Assembly (NCBI GenBank): GCA_002841865.1
Contig: PHBD01000025.1
Span: 20,028-68,208, forward strand
Length of the DNA: 48,181 nt
Direction: 5' to 3'
From: Deltaproteobacteria bacterium HGW-Deltaproteobacteria-19
GTDB lineage: Bacteria > Desulfobacterota > Syntrophia > Syntrophales > PHBD01
The notes under the pieces are model-generated. The model was not told where the DNA came from and made no database searches. It saw only the letters and a list, made by a program, of their open reading frames with translations. Positions 2,948 to 11,016 of this stretch are shown here, one piece after another. Position 1 is the stretch's first letter. Each line of letters begins with the position of its first letter. The translations under genes and the position numbers were made by a program.

Positions 2948-4114
2948 TCAGAGCGTCGATCCGACGATGGTGACGCCGTTGAACTGGTCCACGCCGCCCA
3001 TGGCGTGGGAGAGGGCCAGCTTCGCGCCCTCCACCTGCCGCTCCCCCGCCTTGCCCGTCACCTGGAGGGCCGCTTCGGCAAGCCGGATCAGGCCGGTGGC
3101 GCCGATGGGGTTGGTGCAGAGCGTGCCTCCGGACGGATCGCAGGGAAGCTCGCCGCCCTTCCGGAAGGTCCCCTTCAGGACATAGTCCGGCGCCTCCCCG
3201 CGGGGACAGAAGCCGAAGCACTCGTAGAAGATCATCTCCTGGTAGGTGAAGGGGTTGTAGATCTCGGCCACGTCCAGCTCCTTCAGGGGATCACGGATGC
3301 CCGCCTGCCGGTAGGCCTCGCCGGCGGCCTCGGTGGCGCTCATCCAGACGGCTTTGTCGCTTTCGCCATAGAAGAACTCCTCGCCCCGGAACCCCAGTCC
3401 CCGGATCCAGGCGGGTTTCCGCCCGATCTTCCGGGCCGCCTTCCGGGAGGCGAAGACGACGGCACAGGCGCCGTCCGATGCCGGGCAGACGTCGAGCAGG
3501 CGAACGGGGTAGGTGATGACGCGGGCGTTCTTGACATCATCCATGGTCACCCGCATGCGGATGTGGGCGTGGGGGTTGTCCATGGCGTTGTCGTGGTTGC
3601 TGACCGAGATGAGCGCCGCCGCCTCCCGCCCCTTCTCCTCGGGGATGCCGAAGCGGTACATCCACTCCATGCTCTGCATCGTGAAGACGCCCGGTGCGCC
3701 GGCGGCGAAGGTCCGCTGGAAGAAGGGGTCGAAGACCGTGGTCATGGTCGCCTGGCCGTCCCCTTCGGACATTTTTTCGGACCCCACGACCAGGACGATG
3801 TCCGCCATCCCCGAGGCCACCCAGAAAAACCCGCAGTGCCCGATGGACTGGCCGGTGCTTCCGCAGGTCTCCACCTTCAGGACGGGTTTGCCCAGCGACC
3901 CCATGGCCTCGGCGAAATAGAAGTGGGTCGACGAGACCCCCTCCATCATGGAGGGCATGGTGCCGAGGACGACCCCGTCGATATCTTCCAGCGTGATCCC
4001 AGCGTCGTCCAAGGCTGCCGTCACGGCCTCCCTGACCAGGTCGGGATAGCACAGGTCCGTCCTTCTGCCGTGCCTGGTCTGGCCCGTTCCGATGATCGCA
4101 ACTGCGTTTCCCAT
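2948..4114 (-). CDS. SCP2-type thiolase family protein (catalytic Cys present)
   Basis: The 388-residue protein has the thiolase fold in the SCP-x/lipid-transfer subgroup. Cys84 in KVETCGSTG sits where thiolases carry the acyl-accepting nucleophile. The C-terminal SHAMGG carries the expected histidine, and CTNPIGATG is the usual second conserved loop. Expected reaction: CoA-dependent cleavage of a 3-ketoacyl-CoA to acetyl-CoA or propionyl-CoA plus a shorter acyl-CoA, in the cytoplasm, with a DUF35 subunit. It lies 13 bases downstream of a second thiolase-fold gene. The chain length or branching of its substrate cannot be read from the sequence. Confidence 0.88.
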   Translation of the reverse strand: MGNAVAIIGTGQTRHGRRTDLCYPDLVREAVTAALDDAGITLEDIDGVVLGTMPSMMEGVSSTHFYFAEAMGSLGKPVLKVETCGSTGQSIGHCGFFWVASGMADIVLVVGSEKMSEGDGQATMTTVFDPFFQRTFAAGAPGVFTMQSMEWMYRFGIPEEKGREAAALISVSNHDNAMDNPHAHIRMRVTMDDVKNARVITYPVRLLDVCPASDGACAVVFASRKAARKIGRKPAWIRGLGFRGEEFFYGESDKAVWMSATEAAGEAYRQAGIRDPLKELDVAEIYNPFTYQEMIFYECFGFCPRGEAPDYVLKGTFRKGGELPCDPSGGTLCTNPIGATGLIRLAEAALQVTGKAGERQVEGAKLALSHAMGGVDQFNGVTIVGSTL

Positions 4115-4127
4115 GTCTCGCCCTCCT

Positions 4128-5264
4128 CTAAGCGGATAAAATGACGACCGACTGGCACTGGCCCCCGAACCCGTGGGTGCTGTGGGCCAGCGCCTTCCGG
4201 ACCGTTTTCCCTACCTGGTGCTCCCCGGCCTCGCCCTTGATCTGCAGGGCCGCCTCGGCGATCCGGTAGAGGCCCCGGGCCGGATAGGGATTCGTGGCAA
4301 GAACGCCGCCGGAGGGATTCACGGGAAGGACCCCGTCCATCCGCGATGCACCGCTGTCGATCCACTTTCCGCCTTTGCCTTCGCCGCAGAAACCGAGCTG
4401 CTCGCACCAGAGAAGCTCCTGGAAAGCGTAAGGCTCGCAGACTTCCGCCACGTCGAGCTCCTTCCGGGGATAAGCGATGCCCGCCATGCCGTAGGCCCGT
4501 TTCGCCGCCTCCGGCAGCCGGCCCTTCAGGAGGTCCCGGTCGCCGGGGTGGAAATGGTCCATGGAGCAGCCGTAGCCCGCCAGCCAGACGGGTTTCTTCG
4601 TCAGCTTCTTCGCCCTTTTCTCCGAGGCCAACAGGACTGCGACGACGCCGTCGGACTTGGGTGCGCACTCCAGGGCCTTCAGCGGGTCGTAGATTCTTTC
4701 CGAGCTCATGACGTCCTCGATGCTGACCCTCCGCTTCCGGTCGGCGCAGGGGTTGAAGAGCGCGTTGCCCAGGTTCTTCACGGCCACTTGGGCGCACTGC
4801 TCCTCCGTCACGCTGTAGCGCTCCATGTACTGCCGCATCTGCATGGCCGCCACGACGCTTTCGTTGATGCCCGTGGGCCGCAGGTAGAACGGATCGCCGT
4901 AGAAGCTGGTGATGGGGTCGTTGTCCGGGTTCTCGGACCCCTTGACCAGGGCCGTCACCAGGACCGTGTCATAGCGCCCCGAAAGGATCCGCATGCAGCC
5001 ATAGATGAAGGAGAAGGCCGACTCCTCCGCCCGGGAGCCTTCCTTCAGGAAGGCCCCGATGCCGTCCCAGTCGAAGGCGTTGGCGCAGGACAGGCCGCTG
5101 TGGAAGATGTCCGCCGATCCGGCGATGATGCACCCGACGTCCTCCCGCTGGAGCCCGGCCTTGTCGAGAACCTCCCGGTTGACCCGGTAGGTGAAATCCA
5201 TCAGGCTTTCCCTGGATTCCGCTCCGGAACTCTGTGCCACGTGGGTGATGGCAACCCTTTGCAT
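4128..5264 (-). CDS. thiolase-fold protein lacking the usual nucleophile Cys
   Basis: A 378-residue thiolase-like protein. The frame is open much further upstream, but the start at 5264 is chosen for its strong GAGGAGG site and because the extra N-terminus would lie inside the acyl-CoA dehydrogenase gene. Its C-terminal half is convincing thiolase: LDVAEVCEPYAFQE, NPSGGVLATNPYPARG and AHSTHGFGG. Around residue 77, where the neighbouring paralogue has ETCGSTG, this protein reads KEGSRAEE, and there is no Cys between residues 61 and 89. It may therefore be a non-catalytic subunit, a structural partner of the active thiolase, or an enzyme with different chemistry. Hand alignment only; a shifted nucleophile is not excluded. 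Confidence 0.82.
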   Translation of the reverse strand: MQRVAITHVAQSSGAESRESLMDFTYRVNREVLDKAGLQREDVGCIIAGSADIFHSGLSCANAFDWDGIGAFLKEGSRAEESAFSFIYGCMRILSGRYDTVLVTALVKGSENPDNDPITSFYGDPFYLRPTGINESVVAAMQMRQYMERYSVTEEQCAQVAVKNLGNALFNPCADRKRRVSIEDVMSSERIYDPLKALECAPKSDGVVAVLLASEKRAKKLTKKPVWLAGYGCSMDHFHPGDRDLLKGRLPEAAKRAYGMAGIAYPRKELDVAEVCEPYAFQELLWCEQLGFCGEGKGGKWIDSGASRMDGVLPVNPSGGVLATNPYPARGLYRIAEAALQIKGEAGEHQVGKTVRKALAHSTHGFGGQCQSVVILSA

Positions 5265-5340
5265 GATTTTTCCTCCTCGCTCCTTTGTGGAAACAGCGCA
5301 CCGCTTCCGCCCCGGACCCCGGCGTCGCGGCCTGGCGGGC

Positions 5341-6501
5341 TTAGACGCCCAGGAGTTCCCGGGCAATGATGAGGCGGCGGATCTCCGATGTCCCGGCGCC
5401 GATCTCGATGAGTTTGGCATCCCTGAGGAAGCGCTGGACGGGGTACTCGAGCATGTAGCCGTAGCCTCCATGGATCTGCACGGCCTGGTCCGCGATGCGA
5501 TAGGCCATCTCGGCGTTGAACAGGATGGAGGCCGCGGCGAGCTTGTGGACCTCCGTGCCCTTCCCGCCCTTCCGCTCCTGGTCCGCCAGGAGCGCAGCCT
5601 TGTAGCAGAGCGCCCGGCCCGCCTCGAGCTGCGTGTACATGTCCGCGAGCTTGGCCTGGATGAGTTGGAAGGCGCCGATGGGCTTCCCGAACTGGACCCG
5701 CTCCCGGGCGTACTGGAGGGAGAGTTCGAGGCAGGCCTCGGCAATCCCGATGGACTCACCGGCGTAAAAAGCCCGCTCCACGTCGAGACCCGACATGAGG
5801 ACGTGAATGCCCCGGTTTTCCTCCCCGAGCACGTTCTCCACGGGGATCCGGCAGTCCTCGAGGACCAGCTCCGCCGTGGGGGACCCGCGGTGGCCGTACT
5901 TCTTCAGCTTTTTGGAGACGGAGAACCCGGGGAACGCGGTGTCGAGGATGAAGGCGGTGATGCCCTTCGCCCCCTTCGCCCGGTCCGTCTTGGTATAGAG
6001 GACGATCGTGTCGGCCACCGTGCCGTTGGTGATGAACATCTTCGTCCCGTTGACCACGTAGTGATCGCCGTTTCGCACCGCCACGGTCTGGATGCTGACG
6101 GCATCGGAACCCGCGTTCGGCTCCGTCAGGCCCAGGGCGCCGATGTGCTTTGCGGTGCAGAGGGGTGGGAGGTACTTCCTCTTCTGGTCAGGGCTGGCGT
6201 TGTGGTTCAGGTTGTTGCAGCAGAGGTTGGCGTGGGCGCCCCAGGAAAGGGCGATGGCTGGGCTGGCCTTGGAAAGCTCCTCCAGGACGATCACGGCGGA
6301 GAGAAGGTCCGCCCCGGCGCCGCCGTACTCCTCGTCCACGGTGATTCCCATGATGCCCAGGCCGGCCAGCTTCTCCCACATGCCTTCGGGCCAGGCGTCC
6401 TCCGCGTCGATCTCCTCGGCGATGGGCCGGATTTCCTTCGCGGCGAAACCGCGGATGCTTTCCCGCAGCATGATGTGCTGCTCACTGAAACGGTAATCCA
6501 T
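5341..6501 (-). CDS. acyl-CoA dehydrogenase, isovaleryl-CoA type
   Basis: A 386-residue FAD enzyme of full family length. It shows the N-terminal helical domain, the FAD/substrate signature GLTEPNAGSD (about 124-133), and the C-terminal YEYPVQRF-like/QIHGGYGY region. The IGAGTSEIRR motif has Gly-Ala where short- and medium-chain enzymes carry their catalytic Glu. Glu242 in SGLDVER instead matches the catalytic base of isovaleryl-CoA and long-chain dehydrogenases. Expected role: alpha,beta-dehydrogenation of a branched or bulky acyl-CoA with electrons to ETF. It lies 37 bases after the keto-acid cleavage gene in the same operon. The exact substrate is not determined. Confidence 0.9.
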   Translation of the reverse strand: MDYRFSEQHIMLRESIRGFAAKEIRPIAEEIDAEDAWPEGMWEKLAGLGIMGITVDEEYGGAGADLLSAVIVLEELSKASPAIALSWGAHANLCCNNLNHNASPDQKRKYLPPLCTAKHIGALGLTEPNAGSDAVSIQTVAVRNGDHYVVNGTKMFITNGTVADTIVLYTKTDRAKGAKGITAFILDTAFPGFSVSKKLKKYGHRGSPTAELVLEDCRIPVENVLGEENRGIHVLMSGLDVERAFYAGESIGIAEACLELSLQYARERVQFGKPIGAFQLIQAKLADMYTQLEAGRALCYKAALLADQERKGGKGTEVHKLAAASILFNAEMAYRIADQAVQIHGGYGYMLEYPVQRFLRDAKLIEIGAGTSEIRRLIIARELLGV

Positions 6502-6538: not shown

Positions 6539-7462
6539 TCAGAAGTTCACCGCCCCGAGCCCCTTGAGGCAGAGGATCTTCCGTGCTTCGTCCGGGCCGG
6601 CGGGCTCGATGCCCAGTTCGCGGGCGATCCGGACGATCTTCGCCACCTGTTCCGCGTTGCTCTTGGCCATGACGCCCTTCTCCAGGAAGAGATTGTCCTC
6701 CAGTCCGACCCGGCAGTTGCCTCCCAGGAGCAGGGACTGGTTGCAGAGGGGAAACTGGGCGCGGCCCGCGACGCAGACGGAAAACTCGAAGTCGCCGATC
6801 AGGCGCTTCGTGTAGTCCACCAGGAACATCAGGTTTTCGGGACTGGCCGTGATGCCGCCGAGGATGCCCATGACGTACTGGATGTAGACGGGCTTCTGAA
6901 CGTAGCCCCGCTCGATGAGGAAAGCCACGTTGTTGACCATGCCGGAGTCGTAGACCTCGAACTCCGGTTTGGTCCCGTTGGCGTTGAAGATTGCCGTGAA
7001 CTCCCGCATGGACTTGAACGTGTTGGGGAAGATGAAGTCCTCCGTCATGGCGAGGTATTGCGGTTCCCAGTCGAACTTGAACGTCTTGAACTTGTCGAGG
7101 GCGTGAAAGAGGGCGAAATTCAGGGAGCCGGCGTTGAAGGATGCCAGCTCCGGCTTGAAGGTGGAGACCGGGACGAGGCGCTGATCCGCCGTCATTCCCA
7201 GCCCGCCCCCCGTTGTGATGCAGACGATCATGTCGCAGCGGTTCCGGATGGAAGCCAGCACCTCCCTGATGAGTTCGATGTCCGGTGTCGGGCGCCCCGT
7301 TTCGGGATCGCGAACGTGGATGTGGGCCACCGCGGCCCCGGCATTCCAGGCGGCGACGGCGTCGTCGGCGATCTGTTTCGGGGTGATGGGGAGATAGGGC
7401 GACATGCTCGGCGTGTGGATGCTGCCTGTGACGGCCGCGGTGACGATGGCTTTTTCCTTCAT
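6539..7462 (-). CDS. beta-keto acid cleavage enzyme (BKACE, DUF849)
   Basis: A 307-residue TIM-barrel protein of the BKACE family, whose founding member is 3-keto-5-aminohexanoate cleavage enzyme. The family joins a beta-keto acid with acetyl-CoA to give acetoacetate and a shortened acyl-CoA. The N-terminal ITPKQIADDA helix and the zinc ligands His48 and His50 in AHIHVRDPETG are clear, as is the late ELGIEPAGPDEAR segment. The ATG at 7462 is preferred over one 54 bases upstream because GGAGAGGAG lies just before it. It is the first gene of the operon, about 60 bases downstream of the predicted start of transcription at the sigma-54 promoter. The side-chain specificity of BKACE enzymes varies widely and cannot be assigned here. 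Confidence 0.88.
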   Translation of the reverse strand: MKEKAIVTAAVTGSIHTPSMSPYLPITPKQIADDAVAAWNAGAAVAHIHVRDPETGRPTPDIELIREVLASIRNRCDMIVCITTGGGLGMTADQRLVPVSTFKPELASFNAGSLNFALFHALDKFKTFKFDWEPQYLAMTEDFIFPNTFKSMREFTAIFNANGTKPEFEVYDSGMVNNVAFLIERGYVQKPVYIQYVMGILGGITASPENLMFLVDYTKRLIGDFEFSVCVAGRAQFPLCNQSLLLGGNCRVGLEDNLFLEKGVMAKSNAEQVAKIVRIARELGIEPAGPDEARKILCLKGLGAVNF

Positions 7463-7535
7463 TTCTGCTCTCCTCTCCAGCCTTGGGGGATGGGGGCTGA
7501 CCTTCATGAATTCCATCGTGATCGACTTGTCTCAA

Positions 7536-7549
7536 GCAAGCGGCGTGCC
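7536..7549 (-). promoter_or_regulatory. sigma-54 (-24/-12) promoter of the BKACE operon
   Basis: On the minus strand the site reads GGGCACG-CCGC-TTGCT, against the sigma-54 consensus TGGCACG-N4-TTGCW. The invariant GG and GC are exactly 10 bases apart. Transcription would start near 7524, leaving a leader of about 60 bases before the ATG at 7462. An NtrC-family activator is encoded 288 bases upstream on the same strand. Confidence 0.75.
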
Positions 7550-7697
7550 CGGACCGGACACGGGGTCCCAGCTGCGGGATTATGGATGGAAGGGGAGGTT
7601 ATCCAGGCGGATTATCGGGAGATCACGTCACCAGGATGCGACGGGCTGAGACTGCGGGACGTCGGGGTAAAGCTCCGATTCGGCGGATTCCGCAAGT

Positions 7698-7745
7698 GTA
7701 TGAATACCGACCAGTATTTGTGCGAAAACAATACATGGCCTGTAC
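7698..7745. promoter_or_regulatory. possible enhancer sites for the sigma-54 activator
   Basis: The segment holds alternating AATAC (7703), GTATT (7714) and AATAC (7730) elements. They form an inverted repeat with a 6-base spacer and a second one with an 11-base spacer, the latter extended by TTGT/ACAA. They lie about 150-190 bases upstream of the -24/-12 site, the usual distance for NtrC-type enhancers. The remaining sequence between 7463 and 7698 shows no gene. Which protein binds is inference. Confidence 0.4.
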
Positions 7746-7749
7746 GAAA

Positions 7750-9192
7750 TCAATCCACCGTGGAATTCAGGATGCGCTTCAGCCTCTGCCTGGTGATTTT
7801 CAGGGCCAGGGCGGTACGGGACCGGTTCCCCTGGTAATGGGAGAAAACGGCCTCTACGTAAATTTTGATGGACGAGTCCAGGGCAGCGGGGACCGGTGCG
7901 GGCCGGGACCGGTTCCCCTGGGAATGCGAGGGAATGCCGTCAGCGCAGGCCTCGACGGCGGAGCCCAGGGCCGCGGGGGCCGGAGAGGAGACTTTCGCCG
8001 GATCGGAAATTCCCCGGGAGGCGATATGCTCCAGGGGGATTTCCGTGGTCCGGATCCAGTTCCCCTCGCACAGCAGCATCCCCCGTTCGATGATGTTCCT
8101 CAGCTCCCGGATGTTGCCCGGCCAGGAATAGTTCGACAGGATCGCCAGGGCCTCCTCGTCGTATCCGCTGACGCTTTTGTTCAGTCCGCGGTTGTAGCTG
8201 TCGATGAAATGCCTGATCAGCAGGGGAAGGTCGCTGATTCTCTCCCGCAGGGGCGGGATGACCAGGGAGATCACATTGAGGCGGTAATAGAGATCTTCCC
8301 GGAACGCTCCTGCCCTGACCTCCCGGAACAGATCCTTGTTGGTGGCGGCGATGATCCGGACGTCCAGCTTGATTTTTTTCGTCCCTCCCACCCGCTGGAT
8401 TTTCTTCTCCTCCAGGAATCGAAGCAGTTTGACCTGCGTCTTCGGTGTGATCTCCCCGATTTCGTCGAGGAACAGGGTTCCCCGGTCCGCCAGTTCGAAC
8501 ATTCCCCGCTTTTGCCTCATGGCCCCCGTGAAGGCTCCCCTTTCATGGCCGAACAGCTCGCTCTCCAGGAGCCCCTCGGACAGGGCTGCGCAGTTGACGG
8601 TGATCAGGGGGCTTTCACAACGCGGCCCGTTGTAGTGGATGGCGTTGGCAAAGAGCTCCTTCCCGGTTCCGCTCTCCCCCATGATCAGCACCGTCGACTG
8701 GTCGTTCTTGGCCAGCCTGCGGCTGAGGTCGATCATCCGCTGGATCCTCGGGTGGGCCGTCACGATGTTGTCGAAGCTGTACCGCTCCTTGCTGGTGGAA
8801 CGAATCTTGTTCACTTCGGCGACGGCCTTCTGGGAAGCCAGGCACCGGGCGAGGGCGAACGTCAGTTCGTCGATGTCGAAGGGCTTCGCGATATAGTCGT
8901 AGGCGCCAAGCTTGACGGCCTCCACGGCCCCCTTGATTCCGCTGAAGGCCGTCATGATGATGACCGGCACGCATGCGTCCATGGCCTTGATCTTCTGAAG
9001 CACCTGCATGCCGTCCATGTCCGGTAGCTTCACGTCCAGGAGAATGACGTCGGGACCGTGCTCCCGGAACGTTGCCAGGGCCTCTTCGCCGCTGACGGCG
9101 GTCATGGTCTGGTAACCCTCGTGCGAAAGGGCCTTGTCCAGGGAATGCAGAAGCAGTTTCTCATCGTCGACGATCAGGATGGAGTGTTTCAC
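7750..9192 (-). CDS. NtrC-family sigma-54-dependent response regulator
   Basis: A 480-residue regulator with a receiver domain (phosphoacceptor Asp53 in ILLDVKLP, Lys in AKPFD), an AAA+ sigma-54 activation domain (Walker A GESGTGKE at 172-179, sigma-54 contact loop GAFTGA at 219-224) and a Fis-type helix-turn-helix at the C-terminus. The start is a GTG overlapping the kinase stop as GTGA, so the two are translationally coupled. The longer open frame upstream is the kinase read in another frame. The C-terminus is odd: a 29-codon segment ending in SHxQGNRSR occurs twice in tandem, the first copy being degenerate. It probably activates the adjacent CoA operon through its -24/-12 promoter. Confidence 0.92.
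   Translation of the reverse strand: MKHSILIVDDEKLLLHSLDKALSHEGYQTMTAVSGEEALATFREHGPDVILLDVKLPDMDGMQVLQKIKAMDACVPVIIMTAFSGIKGAVEAVKLGAYDYIAKPFDIDELTFALARCLASQKAVAEVNKIRSTSKERYSFDNIVTAHPRIQRMIDLSRRLAKNDQSTVLIMGESGTGKELFANAIHYNGPRCESPLITVNCAALSEGLLESELFGHERGAFTGAMRQKRGMFELADRGTLFLDEIGEITPKTQVKLLRFLEEKKIQRVGGTKKIKLDVRIIAATNKDLFREVRAGAFREDLYYRLNVISLVIPPLRERISDLPLLIRHFIDSYNRGLNKSVSGYDEEALAILSNYSWPGNIRELRNIIERGMLLCEGNWIRTTEIPLEHIASRGISDPAKVSSPAPAALGSAVEACADGIPSHSQGNRSRPAPVPAALDSSIKIYVEAVFSHYQGNRSRTALALKITRQRLKRILNSTVD
7818..7991. repeat. 87-bp imperfect tandem duplication inside the activator's HTH region
   Basis: A GGGACCGGTTCCCCTGG block occurs at 7818 and again at 7905, exactly 87 bases (29 codons) later, with similar sequence following each. 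In the protein the copies align without gaps as PAALGSAVEA...SHSQGNRSR and PAALDSSIKI...SHYQGNRSR. The in-frame spacing shows duplication within the reading frame. Confidence 0.75.
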
Positions 9193-10844
9193 GGTCGTTT
9201 CTCCCGCTGCGCCGGAAGTGGTCTGCCGACGGGCAGGAGCACCCGGAATGTCGTTCCCCCCTCCGCCTGGCTGTCCACCTCGATCCGGCCGTGGTGGTCC
9301 TCGATGATCTTGTGGGTAACCGTCAGACCCAGGCCCGTCCCTGCGTTCTTGGTCGTGAAAAAGGGGTCGAAGATCTGGCCCAGGTGTTTCGCTGGAATGC
9401 CGATGCCCGTGTCGATGACGTCGACGAAAATCCAACCCCGGTTCCGGGACCTCCGCTTTGCCGCGCCCGTCCTCACGGTGATCGTTCCGCCGTCGTTCAT
9501 GGATTCCATGGCGTTGATGGCCAGGTTCAGGAACACCTGCCGCAGCCGGTTGGGGTCCGCACGGACGGTCGGGTTCTCCGTGCTGAAAACCGTTTTCCAG
9601 GCGATGTGCTTGCGGGCCATCTCTTTTTTCAGCAGGGAAAGGGTCGTCGAGAGGAGTTCATGGAGATCGAATTCCTCGATCTGGAGGGGGACTGGCCTCA
9701 CGAGGTTGAGGATTTCCCGGATCAGGCGCTCGACCCGGTCGATCTCCCGGCGGATGTTTTTCAGTTCCGCCTTCCGGGCCTCGGCCTTGCCGGGATTCCG
9801 TTCCAGGTTCTGGACAGTCGTGTAGATGCTGGCCAGGGGATTCCTGATTTCATGGGCGATTCCCGCGGCGATGCGACCCAGGGCGGCGAACTTCTCCACA
9901 CGGACGAGGTAGTCGTCCATCCTTTTCTTTTCCGTCAGGTCAGTGATGATGGTCACGGCACCGAGGGTCTGATGGTTTTCGTCCAGGACGGCGAAACCGC
10001 TCAGGTTCAGGATGAGGTTCCGGCTGTCCGCGCCCTGGTAGGGGAAGTCGAAGAACTGGATGTCCTCGTTCTTCTTGAGTGCCCCGTAGATCCGGTTCCG
10101 GTCACTCCTCGTGAACCTGAAGATGTCCTGGATCCTGAGCGTTGTGGCCCTCTCCTTCGGGATGCCCATGATCTCCTCCGCCCGGGGATTCACGTTCAGG
10201 ACGCGACCCATGAGGTCCGTGACGATGACACCGTTGGTGGAGCACTTGATGATGTTTTCGGAGAGGGCCTTCTCGTCGCAGAGAGCCTGGTAAAGCCTGG
10301 TGTCCTCGATGATGATGGAGGCCTGGTTGGCGAAAATCGTGAGGGACTCCACGTCGTCCTGGGTGATTTCCATGCGGGTCCGGTAGCGGTCCACACCCAG
10401 GATGCCGAGGATCTTGTCTTTGATCTTCAGGGGGACGTAGAGGACCGACTTTCTCTCCTGCTGTTCGTTGATCACAAGGTCGATCGCTGTTGCGTCGGGT
10501 GCCTTTTCCGTGTCGGGGATGAATCGGGGATTTCCGGAGCGGATGACCTTGGTCTCGTAGCAGTCGTGGCTGTCAAGGATCAGCGGCCTTTCCCAGGCCC
10601 TCCGCTCCCCCTCCGGCGTGAAGCCCTTGATGCACTTGCATTCCAGTCTCGTCTGGTCGTGATTCAGAAGCATGACGATGGCCCGGTCGAAGTTCAGGCC
10701 GGTCATGGCGCTGCTCGTGATCTTGTCCAGGACTTCGCCCAGGTCGGGCGAACTTGTGAGCAGAGAGCTGATCTCGAAGACGTGGTTCAGGAGGTTGTTC
10801 TTGATCCGGAGCTTTTCGCTCAGGACGGCTTCCCGGCGGGCCAT
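9189..10844 (-). CDS. soluble GAF-PAS sensor histidine kinase
   Basis: A 551-residue kinase with a GAF domain (about 35-180), a PAS domain (about 190-305), HisKA with phosphoacceptor His331 in AAGIAHEIRNPLAS, and a HATPase_c domain with DTGIGIP and GTGLGLTV boxes. No membrane segment or signal peptide is visible, so it should sense a cytoplasmic ligand or redox state through GAF/PAS. The ATG at 10844 follows a GAAGGAAGGA site. Its stop overlaps the regulator start by four bases, so kinase and regulator form one operon and surely a cognate pair. The likely signal is an intermediate of the adjacent CoA pathway, which is inference from position. Confidence 0.9.
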   Translation of the reverse strand: MARREAVLSEKLRIKNNLLNHVFEISSLLTSSPDLGEVLDKITSSAMTGLNFDRAIVMLLNHDQTRLECKCIKGFTPEGERRAWERPLILDSHDCYETKVIRSGNPRFIPDTEKAPDATAIDLVINEQQERKSVLYVPLKIKDKILGILGVDRYRTRMEITQDDVESLTIFANQASIIIEDTRLYQALCDEKALSENIIKCSTNGVIVTDLMGRVLNVNPRAEEIMGIPKERATTLRIQDIFRFTRSDRNRIYGALKKNEDIQFFDFPYQGADSRNLILNLSGFAVLDENHQTLGAVTIITDLTEKKRMDDYLVRVEKFAALGRIAAGIAHEIRNPLASIYTTVQNLERNPGKAEARKAELKNIRREIDRVERLIREILNLVRPVPLQIEEFDLHELLSTTLSLLKKEMARKHIAWKTVFSTENPTVRADPNRLRQVFLNLAINAMESMNDGGTITVRTGAAKRRSRNRGWIFVDVIDTGIGIPAKHLGQIFDPFFTTKNAGTGLGLTVTHKIIEDHHGRIEVDSQAEGGTTFRVLLPVGRPLPAQREKRP

Positions 10845-10917
10845 GGTTTTTCCTTCCTTCTCCAGCGCTTGGATTCACCCATATCAAAAAACGCCCGTTC
10901 TCTCCATCTCTCCGCAA

Positions 10918-10931
10918 GCAATATCCGTGCT
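10918..10931 (-). promoter_or_regulatory. -24/-12-like site upstream of the sensor kinase
   Basis: On the minus strand the sequence AGCACG-GATA-TTGCT matches the sigma-54 consensus except that the -24 dinucleotide is AG instead of GG. It lies exactly as far from the kinase ATG (74 bases from the -12 element) as the stronger site lies from the BKACE ATG. If functional, the two-component system would be autoregulated. Confidence 0.4.
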
Positions 10932-11016
10932 TTCTCGCCGACGTTGCCGGCCGCGCCCCCCGTGAATGCCGGTCGGTCCGGGGCGCGGTGGCTGTCACGG
11001 GGGCTTCCGCCGCCGC

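Follow-up and report, generated by a model that had tools for sequence, protein, structure and literature searches.

The minus-strand element GGGCACGCCGCTTGCT at positions 7550–7535 of the window, the whole 48,181-nucleotide stretch of DNA analysed here, is very probably a functional sigma-54 promoter of a seven-gene acyl-CoA operon in an anaerobic Syntrophales bacterium, under the control of the two-component regulator whose gene is adjacent. The claim rests on the position of the element and on its conservation. Switches of this type are well known; the new findings are a predicted enhancer motif for this regulator group and the loss of that motif from the window.

Genes of the operon

All seven genes lie on the minus strand. 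The first, at 6539–7462, encodes a protein of the BKACE/Kce family (beta-keto acid cleavage enzyme; PF05853), whose 412.9 bits against NF053538 (3,5-dioxohexanoate:acetyl-CoA acetone transferase) are close to but below the cut-off of 430 bits. It is followed by an acyl-CoA dehydrogenase (5341–6501, Pfam), a thiolase-like protein in which Pfam recognises only the C-terminal thiolase domain (4128–5264), a thiolase of the SCP2-thiolase type as judged from profile matches (2948–4114), a zinc-ribbon/OB-fold (ChsH2/DUF35-type) protein that is a probable thiolase partner (2465–2932), a second zinc-ribbon/OB-fold protein (1990–2415) and a CoA-transferase of the acetyl-CoA hydrolase/transferase family (553–1917). 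The CoA-transferase gene is probably the last, and beyond it lie large open reading frames in the opposite direction.

BKACE homologues begin at MKEKAIVT (7462), preceded by the ribosome site GGAGAGGAG, and the ATG at 7462 is the likely start. The literal first in-frame ATG, at 7516, was rejected as the start; it is not conserved, and the congener of the window's organism (L010/L140) has no upstream ATGs.

A MaoC-like hydratase gene lies between the dehydrogenase and the first thiolase in all five sibling operons examined. The window has no such gene at 5265–5340, where 76 nt separate dehydrogenase and thiolase; the congener has it.

Promoter element

Read on the minus strand, the GG (7549–7548) and GC (7537–7536) of the element are separated by 10 bases, so that GG-N10-GC lies at exactly 7549–7536, as the preliminary description had stated, and the site fits the TGGCAC-N5-TTGC frame. 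A single mismatch separates GGGCACGCCGCTTGCT from the consensus TGGCACG-N4-TTGCW: the first base is G in the window as opposed to T in the consensus. This G is not a defect, because sibling promoters have C, T, G or A at the same position. From the C of the GC (7536) to the A of the likely start codon (7462) the distance is 74 nt, which agrees with the spacing given in the preliminary description for the first ATG. That the promoter would be a strong one, as it was also called there, we infer from its sequence.

Scored with an approximate matrix, constructed manually after the published consensus and not from a curated set, the site at 7550–7535 reaches 15.0 as opposed to 10.8 for the runner-up on either strand of the 48-kb window, and is by far the best -24/-12 site there. 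When the intergenic region (287 nt) was shuffled, 3 of 4,000 versions scored as high or higher; related sequence totalling 1.65 million strand-bases yields such sites at a rate of 0.008 per kb and strand. Across the whole genome, where pattern matches were counted in place of matrix scores, the pattern with up to one mismatch has 25 matches, against 23 for the reversed control, which is chance level. The sequence alone is therefore not decisive and motif frequency by itself was dropped as proof; position and conservation carry the case. The genome encodes RpoN (PF04552, E = 1.7e-65) with the RpoN box ARRTVAKYRE.

Conservation and co-inheritance with the regulator

Sixty genomes of the order and a one-per-species genome collection supplied relatives of BKACE, and the named ones among them assign the window to the Syntrophales. 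In six Syntrophales loci (the window plus five more) the regulator lies upstream of BKACE and acyl-CoA dehydrogenase, and the -24/-12 site is kept in all six, about 55–72 nt before the ATG and with scores of 10.7–17.3. The sites read GGGCACGCCGCTTGCT in the window, AGGCACACCGCTTGCT in L010, CGGCACATTGTTTGCT in L040, CGGCATATTGCTTGCA in L041, AGGCATGGTGTTTGCG in L043 and TGGCATGCTGTTTGCT in L046. The intergenic DNA around the element has diverged while the element itself has been kept. The preliminary description had named a lack of this conservation as the result that would speak against it; when tested, the element was found in every orthologous operon recovered.

Where the regulator is missing, BKACE genes for the most part lack a comparable site; L020/L062, L027, L102 and two loci of Psychrobacillus are the exceptions. 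The Psychrobacillus genes (L107 and L108) have near-perfect sigma-54 sites, TGGCATGATACTTGCA and TGGCATGATTCTTGCA, upstream of position 6001; these stand 49 nt ahead of the ATG, close to an activator gene in divergent orientation, and represent an independent sigma-54 link for BKACE.

Searching 155 genomes of the order for the regulator identified 13 loci, a set that was later extended; a class-wide search returned the same 155 genomes. At 8 further loci with a close regulator relative (55–74% identical, tblastn), the element follows the regulator stop codon with scores of 10.4–14.3, the background of sites scoring at least 10.4 being 0.08 per kb and strand in related sequence. Most of these elements precede other acyl-CoA genes. 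The operon opens directly with the dehydrogenase in L133, with enoyl-CoA hydratase in L134, with enoyl-CoA hydratase and then dehydrogenase in L137 and L138, and with a MaoC-like gene in L135, L136 and L139, of which L135 continues with a carboxyl transferase and an HMGL-like protein. The first called gene of L136 is ~390 nt from the site, and the sequence of L126 ends before the downstream genes. Since the element follows the regulator also where the downstream genes differ, regulator and promoter are inherited together even when their targets change, which supports the earlier proposal that operon and regulator are one regulatory unit.

Regulator and kinase

The presumed activator is an NtrC/AtoC-type response regulator encoded at 7750–9192 on the minus strand, just upstream of the operon, where the preliminary description had rightly placed a GAFTGA-containing activator. 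Pfam, NCBIfam, motifs and alignment identify hallmarks of an NtrC-type protein: a receiver with the phosphoacceptor Asp and an AAA+ domain with Walker A and with GAFTGA at residue 219. A putative, divergent helix-turn-helix (HTH) of Fis type follows. The receiver Asp, Walker A and GAFTGA are all intact, as is the H-box of the kinase. The C-terminus matches HTH_8 below threshold (15.1 bits against a cut-off of 22), and the sequence ITRQRL(R/K)RI(L/I) is conserved in the regulators of all siblings. An in-frame tandem duplication of 2 × 87 nt (29 codons; 71% identical) at 7803–7976 on the minus strand lies just before the HTH and runs into it; the congener shares this duplication and the other orthologues do not.

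The gene at 9189–10844 on the minus strand, which overlaps the regulator start by four bases, encodes a sensor histidine kinase with GAF, PAS, HisKA and HATPase domains (Pfam). The kinase is apparently soluble, with no strongly hydrophobic or clear membrane segment seen along it. Both proteins are 88–92% identical to those of the congener. Upstream of the kinase start by 72 nt, AAGCACGGATATTGCT at 10917–10932 (minus strand) resembles a decayed -24/-12 site; because L133 and L142 carry sites at similar places (TGGAACGTTTATTGCT and TGGAATATTTATTGCT, respectively), the kinase–regulator pair may be under sigma-54 control in some relatives.

Relation to known systems

In Escherichia coli, the NtrC-type two-component pair AtoS–AtoC acts with sigma-54 on atoDAEB, an operon of CoA-transferase/thiolase type (PMC3118216). 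The AtoC enhancer in E. coli consists of two inverted 20-bp sites. AtoC and AtoS are the best NCBIfam matches of the window's regulator and kinase, but the scores fall far below the cut-offs (480.4 against 714 bits for the regulator and 311.1 against 646 bits for the kinase), and the window's pair is therefore an analogue of AtoSC and not a member of it. As opposed to AtoS, the kinase described here is apparently soluble and carries GAF and PAS domains; the operon, unlike atoDAEB, includes BKACE, acyl-CoA dehydrogenase and OB-fold proteins; and the predicted enhancer in this regulator group differs from the two inverted 20-bp sites of AtoC.

Sigma-54 regulons with their cognate activators have been reconstructed in Desulfovibrio vulgaris (PMC4641369) and in Clostridiales, where enhancers lie mostly 100–250 bp upstream of the promoter (PMC6615313). 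The system described here resembles these regulons in its activator, its -24/-12 promoter, a predicted enhancer at least 100 bp upstream and acyl-CoA genes among the targets, whereas the lineage and the target genes are different. The literature searched held no prior account of the Syntrophales regulator group or of its dyad, and little on the control of Syntrophales acyl-CoA operons.

Syntrophales process acyl-CoA intermediates near the thermodynamic limit. The conserved promoter together with the predicted enhancer motif gives a direct route to listing the operons of one regulator group; the same pair lets the signal of the kinase be tested, and the motif is itself testable.

Predicted enhancer motif and its absence from the window

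Of 13 sibling regulator loci, 12 carry GGAT-N7-ATCC as an exact dyad (GGATTAAATTAATCC is one instance), and the one without it is that of the window's congener. Searched to about 140 nt, the dyad lies 2–120 nt after the regulator stop codon and 129–395 nt before the promoter, against an expected background of 0.0036 per 150 nt. Among all 4+4 dyads tested in the first six regions, GGAT-N7-ATCC was common to four, a number reached by 1 of 300 shuffle sets. Dyad and promoter also occur together at C2, where the window's own genome encodes a paralogue of the regulator. GGAT-N7-ATCC is likely to be the enhancer, or binding motif, of this regulator family.

The family dyad is absent from the window between regulator stop and promoter, at 0–1 mismatch, and is absent from the congener; the best dyad-matrix matches in the window are partial and overlap the 3′ end of the regulator gene. 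At this operon the motif has thus been lost in the window's own genus. The preliminary description had singled out 7560–7750 for a binding test of the activator, and here it is at its weakest, since this stretch does not contain the dyad that characterises relatives of the regulator. Another dyad, AATACTGGTCGGTATT, which closely follows the regulator stop codon, was rejected as an enhancer because the congener has not preserved its left arm.

The only enhancer candidates in the window are three degenerate 15-nt units with an exact 22-nt spacing at 7698–7756 on the minus strand: GGATTGATTTCGTAC (7756–7742), GTATTGTTTTCGCAC (7734–7720) and GGTCGGTATTCATAC (7712–7698). They form a weak candidate: in the window, 3 of 150 shuffles equal or exceed their repeat score, and the score of the congener is unremarkable. 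The stretch 7756–7698 is ~80% identical to the congener, as opposed to ~65% for most of the remaining region.

Alternative explanations and proposed mechanism

In one alternative, which we regard as improbable, the sigma-54 promoter is real but is driven, in the window's genus, by another activator while the adjacent regulator has drifted. In its favour, the dyad stands in 12 of 13 sibling loci and not in the window or L140, the 29-codon duplication adjoins the regulator HTH, and the C2 paralogue keeps promoter and dyad alike; moreover, the genome is rich in other activators (89 first-look candidates), a different one of which could act on the operon. Against such drift stand a regulator and kinase that are intact, 88–92% identical to the congener's and still adjacent, and a recognition helix, ITRQRLKRIL, that is unaltered except for R to K.

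Still less probable is a chance -24/-12 match, in which case a sigma-70-type promoter, or read-through from the kinase–regulator genes, would transcribe the operon. The pattern is no commoner genome-wide than its reversed control, the genes all share one orientation, and the DNA separating regulator and BKACE showed no terminator. However, all orthologous operons have the element at the corresponding place, amid DNA that has diverged, and no sigma-70-like promoter was seen in the intergenic region.

If 7550–7535 is the promoter and the adjacent regulator drives it, RNA polymerase with RpoN would be held there in the closed state. On a metabolic cue, probably an acyl-CoA, a keto acid or a similar intermediate, the kinase would use its GAF/PAS sensor and phosphorylate the regulator. 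The regulator would then oligomerise on an upstream enhancer, whose position in the window's genome may be that of the 22-nt-spaced units; after DNA looping, the GAFTGA loop would open the promoter through ATP hydrolysis, and transcription would start near 7525.

A broader reading, which we put forward tentatively and hold to be possible but the less probable side of the question, is that an undescribed Syntrophales group of two-component activators uses a GGAT-N7-ATCC enhancer together with a sigma-54 promoter of CGGCAT/TGGCAC type to control several acyl-CoA operons. In the window's genus, the enhancer at this operon would have been replaced by the three 22-bp-spaced variant units, with the tandem duplication beside the DNA-binding helix of the regulator, as if regulator and enhancer were co-evolving.

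Elsewhere, at L162 1694–1958 (G000:C58:114694–114958), the dyad GGATTGTATTCATCC precedes, by ~235 nt, a weak sigma-54-like site with an acyl-CoA ligase-like gene, and the paralogous regulator may have another target here.
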